In this document: piece by piece, positions 6,414 to 7,326 of the stretch
Layout: the number at the start of each line of letters is the position of its first letter
How positions within the stretch are numbered: the first letter of the stretch is position 1
Assembly (NCBI RefSeq): GCF_021532625.1
Contig: NZ_JAKGAR010000001.1
Span: 1,054,001-1,118,000 of the forward strand
Direction: 5' to 3'
Source: Octadecabacter algicola
Lineage (GTDB): Bacteria > Pseudomonadota > Alphaproteobacteria > Rhodobacterales > Rhodobacteraceae
Length of the DNA stretch: 64,000 nucleotides
Notes under the pieces: generated by a model
The model's input: the letters and a program-made list of their open reading frames with translations, nothing else
The model's database searches: none
Told to the model about the DNA's origin: nothing
Made by a program: the position numbers and the translations under genes

Positions 6414-6592
6414 GGATTCACCTGCCTGAGTTCACTGGATACTTAAACTGCCTGACGTCAGGACAACAACGGTGAACTTTTGTGCAATTTCAGGGGTGAC
6501 CCTACGTCCGATCACCTTGATGGCGCTAAATGTAACACTTTCAAGGCACTAACCATGCAGTTTCTGCATAGCGGCATTGATCATCCGAGGGA

Positions 6593-6619
6593 TTGTGCAA
6601 GTGCAGCAATTGCCTATTT
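6593..6619 (+). promoter_or_regulatory. Possible promoter of the DUF1127/cuckoo RNA unit
   Basis: TTGTGC (6593-6598) and CTATTT (6614-6619) are separated by 15 bases, about 75 bases upstream of the DUF1127 start. In R. sphaeroides the equivalent unit is transcribed from an RpoHI/RpoHII promoter with a TTG...CTAT-type sequence. The match here is partial. The rest of 6414-6694 shows no gene. Confidence 0.3.
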
Positions 6620-6694
6620 TCAATCAGGAAGGCGCAATACGGCGCTACAGCAGAAGGCCCCGAGATTGGGTCTAACTTAGAAAAGAGACTTAAG

Positions 6695-6931
6695 ATGGCA
6701 CACGCTACTGACACAAATTTTTCCGCTGGCAACGCACAAGCAGTTTCCAACGCCCGCACATTCGCTTCTGGCTTGGTCCAGTCCATCCGCACAAAGATGG
6801 AACAGCGCCGCGTCTACAACACAACACTAAACGAGCTCCTGTCTCTGACAACTCGTGAGTTGAACGACCTCGGCCTGCACAAAAGCCAACTGAACACAGT
6901 CGCTCGTGAGGCTGCTTACGGCAAAGCATAA
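6695..6931 (+). CDS. ccaF1: Small DUF1127 protein, CcaF1-like
   Basis: A 78-residue protein with the Arg-rich DUF1127 core near the C-terminus: YNTTLNELLSLTTRELNDLG (about 47-66), followed by LHKSQLNTVAREAAYG. The ATG at 6695 is chosen because GAGACTTAAG lies just ahead and because the upstream in-frame codons are not family-like. The gene is followed within 15 bases by an array of CCTCCTCCC-loop hairpins. That is the arrangement of RSP_6037 (CcaF1) and the CcsR1-4 sRNAs in Rhodobacter sphaeroides, where the protein affects sRNA processing and RNA turnover. The symbol rests on domain plus synteny. Expression is probably stress-induced and read through into the array. Confidence 0.85.
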   Translation: MAHATDTNFSAGNAQAVSNARTFASGLVQSIRTKMEQRRVYNTTLNELLSLTTRELNDLGLHKSQLNTVAREAAYGKA

Positions 6932-6944
6932 CGAATACCGGAAT

Positions 6945-7019
6945 CGATGCGGCTTTACCTCCCTTTAGACGCATCGTGATCGCACCTAGCTCCGCTTCTC
7001 CTCCCTAGGGGTCGGGTGC
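6945..7019 (+). ncRNA. Cuckoo RNA unit 1 (two hairpins)
   Basis: First hairpin: CGATGCG (6945-6951) pairs with CGCATCG (6970-6976), and the loop contains CCTCCC (6958-6963). Second hairpin: GCACC and CCTAG (6982-6989) pair with CTAGG (7005-7009) and GGGTGC, and the loop contains CTCCTCCC (6998-7005). It begins 14 bases after the DUF1127 stop codon. Confidence 0.75.
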
Positions 7020-7021
7020 AC

Positions 7022-7074
7022 AGATCAAGACGCGGCGGTGTCTTCCTCCTCCCTGACACCGCCGTGCTTGATCT
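7022..7074 (+). ncRNA. Cuckoo RNA long hairpin A1
   Basis: AGATCAAG (7022-7029) pairs with CTTGATCT (7067-7074), and GGCGGTGTC (7034-7042) pairs with GACACCGCC (7055-7063). The 12-base loop carries the complete CCTCCTCCC (7045-7053). It is nearly identical to the hairpin at 7162-7214, with compensating changes (GGTGTC/GACACC here versus GATGTC/GACATC there) that preserve pairing. Confidence 0.85.
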
Positions 7075-7086
7075 CAAGAATACAAG

Positions 7087-7159
7087 GATCGGGGCTTTTC
7101 TTCCTCCCAGAAGCCGCCCTGAGATCGCGCCCTACCCGTCCTCCCACGGGGATCGGCGC
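7087..7159 (+). ncRNA. Cuckoo RNA unit with two short hairpins
   Basis: The first hairpin has GATC/GATC ends and a GGCTT/AAGCC stem around the CCTCCC loop (7103-7108). The second pairs GCGCC (7127-7131) with GGCGC (7155-7159) and CCCGT (7135-7139) with ACGGG (7146-7150), leaving exactly CCTCCC (7140-7145) as the loop. Confidence 0.75.
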
Positions 7160-7161
7160 AT

Positions 7162-7250
7162 AGATCAAGACGCGGCGATGTCTTCCTCCTCCCTGACATC
7201 GCCGCACTTGATCAACCCAGAATGGGCCGCCTGTCCTCCCACAGGCTGAC
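7162..7250 (+). ncRNA. Cuckoo RNA unit: long hairpin A2 plus short hairpin
   Basis: GATCAAG (7163-7169) pairs with CTTGATC (7207-7213), and GGCGATGTC (7174-7182) with GACATCGCC (7195-7203). The loop holds CCTCCTCCC (7185-7193). A second hairpin, GCCTGT (7229-7234) with ACAGGC (7241-7246), has CCTCCC (7235-7240) as its entire loop. Confidence 0.82.
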
Positions 7251-7261
7251 CCAACACAAAG

Positions 7262-7299
7262 GCGATGAAATCCTCCTCCCAGGGTTTCGTCGCTTTTTT
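7262..7299 (+). terminator. Rho-independent terminator of the cuckoo RNA unit
   Basis: GCGATGAAA (7262-7270) pairs with TTTCGTCGC (7285-7293, one G-U pair), followed by TTTTTT (7294-7299). Its loop also contains CTCCTCCC, so the terminator itself is the last member of the hairpin family. Confidence 0.88.
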
Positions 7300-7326
7300 G
7301 TTTTCGGCTCCCAACTTTTGGAAATT

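Follow-up and report, generated by a model that had tools for sequence, protein, structure and literature searches.

The cuckoo RNA family, or CIN1 locus, is said to have been described by Reinkensmeier and Giegerich in 2015. Its members combine a conserved loop with variable stems and lie beside a short DUF1127 gene, as described in PMC4504443 and PMC10253847; the motif has been described as comprising 2-4 hairpins. In R. (Cereibacter) sphaeroides, the DUF1127 gene ccaF1 is followed directly by the anti-Shine-Dalgarno (anti-SD) hairpins of CcsR1-4. RNase E is reported to cut the precursor into CcsR1-4, an RpoHI/HII promoter is reported for the operon, and the co-encoded DUF1127 protein is reported to bind RNA (PMC10253847). 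The account in PMC8307010 names flhR as a CcsR target and describes the glutathione pool and pyruvate dehydrogenase, not uptake genes, as affected. The ar14 RNAs (NfeR1, SmelA075; RF02344) are built of three hairpins side by side, every one of which has an anti-SD loop. For the sRNA NfeR1, a length of 115 nt is given, and both of its validated targets are described as encoding periplasmic solute-binding proteins (PMC8844928); its predicted targets are given as mostly ABC systems (PMC10746234). In Brucella, VtlR is reported to activate AbcR2 together with three DUF1127 proteins (PMC12595884). In S. meliloti, LsrB activates AbcR1 according to PMC8844928 and is reported as not involved according to PMC7486931.

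We describe here a DUF1127 gene and a hairpin array of Octadecabacter algicola. Our evidence supports the view that this locus is an ordinary member of the described CcaF1-CcsR ('cuckoo', CIN1) family. The parts that go beyond the known family are a candidate regulator box upstream of the gene and a list of candidate targets.

Organisation of the Octadecabacter locus

The features of the locus are collected in Table 1, with positions counted in the window, by which we mean the whole 64-kb stretch of DNA that was analysed. The hairpin array spans 6939-7302, and 7 nt separate its first predicted pair (6939) from the DUF1127 stop codon (6931). Hairpins were identified with a script in which each CCTCC was forced unpaired and then tested for its position in a hairpin loop. 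All eight CCTCC sites of 6932-7312 sit in hairpins, and the array is the sole cluster of at least two CCTCC hairpins on either strand of the window, which has six lone CCTCC hairpins per strand. Among 1000 dinucleotide shuffles of the array region, the maximum was three hairpins versus the real eight, and the folding z of the region is -10.4.

Table 1. Positions and basis of the features of the ccaF1-like locus in the window
Feature	Position	Strand	Basis
Conserved block ATGCA-N5-TGCATRGCNGCATTG-N12-ATTGTGCA-N3-GCAGCA, divergent apbC-ccaF1 spacer	6555..6608	+	nhmmer and genus alignment
VtlR/LsrB-like box TGCATAGCGGCATTG	6565..6579	+	2/15 mismatches to reverse complement of VtlR motif (PMC12595884)
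Candidate RpoH-type promoter TTG ... CCTATTT	6593..6619	+	largely conserved in genus; unproven
ccaF1-like gene, DUF1127 protein of 78 aa	6695..6931	+	PF06568, E 2.6e-9
H1, loop with ACCTCCC, first of module A	6945..6976	+	fold
H2, loop with TCCTCCC	6982..7019	+	fold
H3, loop with CCTCCTCCC, 20 bp stem	7022..7074	+	fold and covariation
H4, loop TCCTCCC, first of module B	7087..7126	+	fold
H5, loop CCTCCC, preceding T in closing pair	7127..7159	+	fold
H6, loop with CCTCCTCCC, ends 75-nt repeat of H2-H3 stretch	7163..7213	+	fold
H7, loop CCTCCC, preceding T in closing pair	7223..7253	+	fold
H8, loop with CCTCCTCCC, then T6: rho-independent terminator	7257..7299	+	fold and stem covariation

An earlier note on this DNA had counted eight stem-loops and, besides them, a terminator whose own loop carries the motif. 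The eight hairpins exist and the terminator loop does bear the motif (H8 has CCTCCTCCC, then six T), but the terminator is itself one of the eight, so that the count becomes seven plus the terminator. The note had also read CCTCCC or the full motif in the loops, which holds for all eight, with full CCTCCTCCC only in H3, H6 and H8. At the RNA level, CCUCCC lies in 8/8 loops and full CCUCCUCCC in 3/8 (the same three), leaving five with CCTCCC alone. UCCUCCC falls wholly in the predicted loop of five of the eight hairpins; in H5 and H7 the T belongs to the closing pair, and H1 has an A.

The array has an internal repeat, in which the 75-nt stretch that ends with H3 recurs at 140 nt spacing with 85% identity. 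A three-hairpin module occurs twice in the window (H1-H3 and H4-H6) and likewise in Octadecabacter sp. B2R22, the nearest named locus, and the window array consists of two ar14-like modules and two further hairpins. In the other 15 genus loci there are 3-7 hairpins, arranged in most of them as one three-hairpin module, then at least one short hairpin, then the terminator. The window and B2R22 differ at 23 positions, all of them outside the CCTCC motifs.

The compensating pairs by which, according to the note, the two long hairpins differ (GGTGTC/GACACC in one, GATGTC/GACATC in the other) proved to be real, and covariation in related genomes was found as well, with 14 of the 28 module pairs changed on both sides among 19 modules from 17 genomes. 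In the alignment of the three-hairpin module, 97.7% of 529 cells are paired. Module covariation as high as this was reached by 0/500 shuffles, and structures slid by 1-3 columns yielded one to three double-sided pairs, a comparison in which the derived structure is favoured because it was derived from the same alignment as was scored. Five measures were scored; in that of 'further pair types', 25/500 shuffles reached the module value. The terminator stem has double-sided changes at 7/14 pairs; 6/500 shuffles reach seven, and 28/500 reach its pair types. The RNA structure of the three-hairpin module is under selection.

The DUF1127 protein of the window is 94% identical to its B2R22 orthologue, and the DNA of the locus is matched in 17 of 19 Octadecabacter genomes, the window genome counted. 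At the three other DUF1127 loci of the window genome, no CCTCC-hairpin cluster was found behind the gene. The idea that ccaF1 might be immune to its own RNAs was also considered: a GGAGG Shine-Dalgarno sequence was found at 0/76 ccaF1 starts of the named loci described below (four of the 80 yielded no start) and at 1/17 starts in the genus, versus 14/488 control starts, which were poorly called. Within the ccaF1 leader, a possible short hairpin (6656-6673, GGCCC/GGGTC-like) was seen by eye in the genus alignment. An upstream reading frame in the conserved leader was considered and rejected as not coding, with frame shifts in some species by eye.

Kinship and array length across Rhodobacteraceae

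The locus was compared with 80 named Rhodobacteraceae loci, chosen as the best 80 among 207 loci that similarity to a four-sequence query had confirmed, and thus not a random sample. In 67 of the 80, Cereibacter included, apbC is the divergent neighbour upstream of the ccaF1-like gene. By the common apbC neighbour and a common upstream block, the window gene is an orthologue of the Cereibacter gene.

Two Rfam models align with the window array at scores below their gathering scores. CcsR1 (RF02791) reaches 30.0 bits (E 3.5e-5; gathering score 65.3). The ar14 model (RF02344) reaches 37.3 and 37.2 bits (E 3.5e-5 and 3.7e-5; gathering score 58.8), its 123 nt aligning end to end with each of the two modules, and in both modules the three hairpins each have an anti-SD loop. 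CcsR1 lies above its gathering score directly after the DUF1127 gene in all four Cereibacter-group loci examined. Of three other loci, Cognatiyoonia sediminum and Flavimaricola marinus have ar14 above its gathering score at the same locus; neither model exceeds its gathering score at the B2R22 locus. Across the family, with an E limit of 1e-3, the CcsR1 model matches 324 of 394 genomes, and in 17 of these it exceeds the gathering score. Among 11 genomes without a CcsR1 match that were opened near their DUF1127 match, eight have clusters of 2-6 hairpins, so an absent Rfam match is a poor negative.

The note had identified the window locus as a CcaF1-CcsR or cuckoo RNA locus, and this is borne out by the Rfam matches, by CcsR1 in the same place in 4/4 Cereibacter-group loci and by apbC in 67/80. 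Three of the traits by which cuckoo RNA is described are found here, namely adjacent hairpins with a CCUCCUCCC-type loop, variable paired stems and a short DUF1127 gene directly upstream. Cereibacter-group loci share with the window the divergent apbC, the upstream block and arrays of eight or ten hairpins. In contrast to CcaF1-CcsR1-4, the units of the window are modules of three hairpins rather than two, and five of the eight loops have CCTCCC alone; in contrast to ar14, two modules stand in tandem inside the 3' UTR of a DUF1127 gene.

An array was defined as at least two hairpins that begin no more than 450 nt from where the DUF1127 match starts. By this definition, 73 of the 80 named loci have arrays of 2-17 hairpins, and seven have none; two of these seven loci break off within 400 nt of that start. 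The upper figure differs from the 2-4 hairpins of the described cuckoo motif. On the opposite strand, none of the 80 loci showed a cluster. Eight hairpins are present in C. johrii, C. ovatus and Luteovulum azotoformans, and ten in C. changlensis.

We take RSs0680a of R. sphaeroides to be CcsR1. Two stem-loops are described for RSs0680a (PMC3927594). Four CcsR units of two stem-loops each therefore make eight hairpins in the original. The proposal that the window array is longer than the four-unit original thus fails, since its eight hairpins equal the eight of C. johrii, C. ovatus and L. azotoformans, a comparison of length that rests on Cereibacter relatives, R. sphaeroides not being among the named loci. 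Lengths from short-read assemblies may be lower bounds, because near-identical units could collapse.

Several arrays of unusual layout were observed. One locus (L008, genome G051) has 14 hairpins that form seven two-hairpin units, the later of which make up a 114-nt tandem repeat (5.4 copies, 95% matches). Besides the main array, Pseudoroseicyclus tamaricis (L137) and Alloyangia pacifica (L080) have another CCTCC hairpin cluster on that strand, with five and four hairpins, respectively. At L022 (G007:C6:20602-22631), four consecutive DUF1127 matches share one strand, and the clusters along this stretch have 8, 2 and 4 hairpins, sizes that are uncorrected for overlap; this is a multiplied DUF1127-array unit. 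Thirty loci of top-scoring DUF1127 matches (L186-L215) were inspected for paralogues, and a cluster stands close behind the gene in four and none in 24. Three of the four (L194, L195 and L209) have 6-7 hairpins each and are the same places as ccaF1-like matches, and the fourth (L211) has two hairpins. The clusters of L192 lie farther downstream of the DUF1127 gene, and that of L201 about 1.4 kb off.

The conserved upstream block

The conserved block in the apbC-ccaF1 spacer is 54 bp long and ends 86 nt before the ccaF1 start codon. Using nhmmer with a model of the genus upstream region, it was found in 78 of the 80 named loci. It was also observed at loci without a counted array (L090 and L105, which end soon after, and L108, L118, L127 and L153), so box and array may part.

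Within the block lies a sequence that resembles the VtlR motif of PMC12595884. It is the sole place in the window with at most two mismatches to that motif; four others have three. Among the 80 named loci the motif occurs exactly in none, with at most two mismatches in 59 and with at most three in 72, versus 0 and 3, respectively, of 400 control windows taken from these loci. Two mismatches are found at 14 of the 17 genus loci and three at one; of the remaining two, one is masked by N there. A degenerate VtlR-like pattern had two matches in the window at up to two mismatches versus 1.5 expected, and weight is placed solely on the 80-locus comparison because the degenerate pattern came from the alignment itself. 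The VtlR consensus is given as GCAT-N3-TG-N3-T (PMC7486931). The loci agree with it except at one core position, the T of TG, which is A or G in most Rhodobacteraceae loci; the likeness is one of sequence.

The block also overlaps the TTG...CCTATTT element, which is compatible with the RpoHI/HII consensus TTG / TAT given in a figure legend of PMC10673084. Both VtlR and RpoH may provide inputs to the ccaF1 operon. The VtlR/LsrB regulon of Rhizobiales offers a parallel in its DUF1127 protein and anti-SD RNA outputs, its similar promoter box and the uptake-gene targets of its RNAs, as far as these are described; its outputs are separate genes, whereas those of the window would come from one presumed transcript. 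If the box is what it appears to be, it would join the CcsR stress RNAs of R. sphaeroides and the VtlR/LsrB-AbcR system of Rhizobiales into one circuit. In a search of titles and the starts of abstracts, nothing among the matches listed linked CcsR of R. sphaeroides with VtlR/LsrB.

Loop 7-mer, candidate targets and proposed mechanism

The loops are nearly constant. In 595 hairpins of the 73 named arrays, T precedes the last CCTCC in 581, C follows it in 588, and CCTCCTCCC is present in 545. The loop 7-mer UCCUCCC is the exact complement of GGGAGGA. The ribosome's own optimum is AGGAGGU, so the G before GGAGGA is unexplained by ribosome binding alone.

Searching the window genome for GGGAGGA-N4-10-ATG gave 51 sites versus two in the reversed control. 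With A, C or T first (HGGAGGA) there were 74 sites versus 19 in the control; two overlapping sites were fetched as one, giving 73 loci, of which 15 have A first. An ORF of at least 80 aa starts at 48/51 GGGAGGA sites versus 35/73 HGGAGGA sites, shorter ORFs having been dropped (3/51 and 38/73). Solute-binding proteins, as assigned by Pfam in this one genome, follow 21/51 GGGAGGA sites versus 3/73 HGGAGGA sites (p = 3e-7 over sites, 5e-4 over ORFs), where the 21 and the 3 were scanned singly after being picked from the first 25 of 52 and 47 families, so that a rarer binding-protein family could be missed, and where L166, counted among the 21, matches weakly (28.8 bits versus a cut-off of 26) and L272, counted among the 3, begins within its domain. 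The 21 comprise seven DctP, seven SBP_bac_1, three Peripla_BP_4, two Peripla_BP_6, one SBP_bac_5 and one NMT1_3 protein. Other GGGAGGA genes encode an ABC permease and a LacI-type regulator (L182, excluded from the tally), and neighbouring sites precede proteins with molybdopterin-binding and [2Fe-2S] domains.

GGGAGGA stands before 7/10 DctP genes here versus 5/24 in five genomes without a CcsR1 match (p = 0.015; 34 further DctP matches were found in the five comparison genomes and this one, and 24 of 26 in the comparison genomes were read, all but two of genome G136). Uptake genes may favour GGGAGGA for other reasons, because 5/24 DctP genes have it in genomes without a CcsR1 match. Genome-wide GGGAGGA excess differs weakly between genomes with and without a CcsR1 match (medians 1.56 versus 1.30, p = 0.026) in a typed subset of 91 of the 394 genomes, with three rows picked by eye. 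As a marker of the array, this excess was rejected as weak and confounded, the top value being in a genome without a CcsR1 match. That genome (G184, 6.14, the highest of the 91) also has no match to the window DUF1127 protein.

We consider it rather probable that the locus is a CcaF1-CcsR-type operon, in which a stress- or redox-induced precursor would give rise to anti-SD sRNAs that repress uptake genes. A single transcript would encode a small RNA-binding protein of the DUF1127 type and carry the eight hairpins in its 3' UTR. Cleavage of this precursor by an endonuclease (in R. sphaeroides, RNase E) would release small RNAs with two or three hairpins each, and an exposed UCCUCCC loop would pair with a GGGAGGA Shine-Dalgarno sequence and block translation. 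Several equal loops per transcript would make repeat number a setting of the dose. Under stress, the operon would lower nutrient uptake through TRAP and ABC solute-binding proteins, because these form the largest class of GGGAGGA genes (21/51). Two inputs would probably control transcription: an RpoH-type promoter and, at the upstream box, a LysR activator of the VtlR/LsrB type. We infer transcription, processing, repression and the role of the DUF1127 protein at the window locus, and stress induction of the array would follow by analogy with R. sphaeroides.

A wider reading is put forward more tentatively, as one that may well not hold in full. The Rhodobacteraceae CcaF1-CcsR operon might be the counterpart of the VtlR/LsrB-AbcR-DUF1127 system condensed into one transcript, with a LysR redox switch, an expandable UCCUCCC array and GGGAGGA-marked solute-binding genes that are shut down. 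In the same tentative reading, GGGAGGA before solute-binding protein genes could be a non-canonical start signal. If true, the 7-mer match turns the vague idea that such RNAs bind many ribosome sites into a list of named targets open to reporter assays.

Three other explanations were weighed against the operon model. Another anti-SD RNA, AbcR-like or of the ar14/ar15 kind, might read GGGAGGA and leave the array a smaller target set, for instance in C1 metabolism. The published CcsR target flhR (PMC8307010) would suit this, as would a separate CCTCCTCCC hairpin in the 3' UTR of a phasin-like gene and the GGGAGGA sites that precede some DctP genes where the genome lacks a CcsR1 match. We nonetheless regard it as rather unlikely, given that the loop 7-mer exactly complements the enriched 7-mer and that the array holds three of the nine CCTCCTCCC sites of the genome, both strands counted. 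Other anti-SD RNAs of the genome, such as the phasin-like 3' UTR hairpin, could shape the same GGGAGGA sites, and the array is the likeliest, though unproven, reader of them. A match between the loops and GGGAGGA start sites also bears on the idea that the array is an unprocessed, multivalent decoy of the CsrB type, which would hold the DUF1127 protein, free mRNA leaders or GGAGG-bearing RNAs, since a pure protein decoy needs no such match. Arrays that vary from 2 to 17 hairpins while their loop bases stay nearly constant are what a decoy might look like, and the DUF1127 protein of R. sphaeroides is reported to bind RNA (PMC10253847); the same source has RNase E cutting the precursor into CcsR1-4, and a decoy is in our judgement distinctly unlikely.

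That the hairpins mainly stabilise the DUF1127 mRNA and terminate it, with loop conservation arising from gene conversion and tandem duplication, appears highly improbable. The loops are nearly fixed over 73 arrays while within the genus the stems covary. All 23 differences between the window and B2R22 avoid CCTCC, and duplication alone would not spare the loops only. Such a role would fit a last hairpin that is a terminator, and tandem duplication is indeed visible both in the 75-nt repeat (85%, 140 nt) and in the 114-nt repeat of L008 (5.4 copies).

The phasin-like gene belongs to a further locus of the window genome. At L185 (1498-1579, minus strand; G000:C7:1136797-1136878), the 3' UTR of this gene holds one CCTCCTCCC hairpin with a terminator behind it, upstream of a PhaR-like gene, both names being our reading of the translations, and the ar14 model scores 36.7 bits there (E 4.3e-5).
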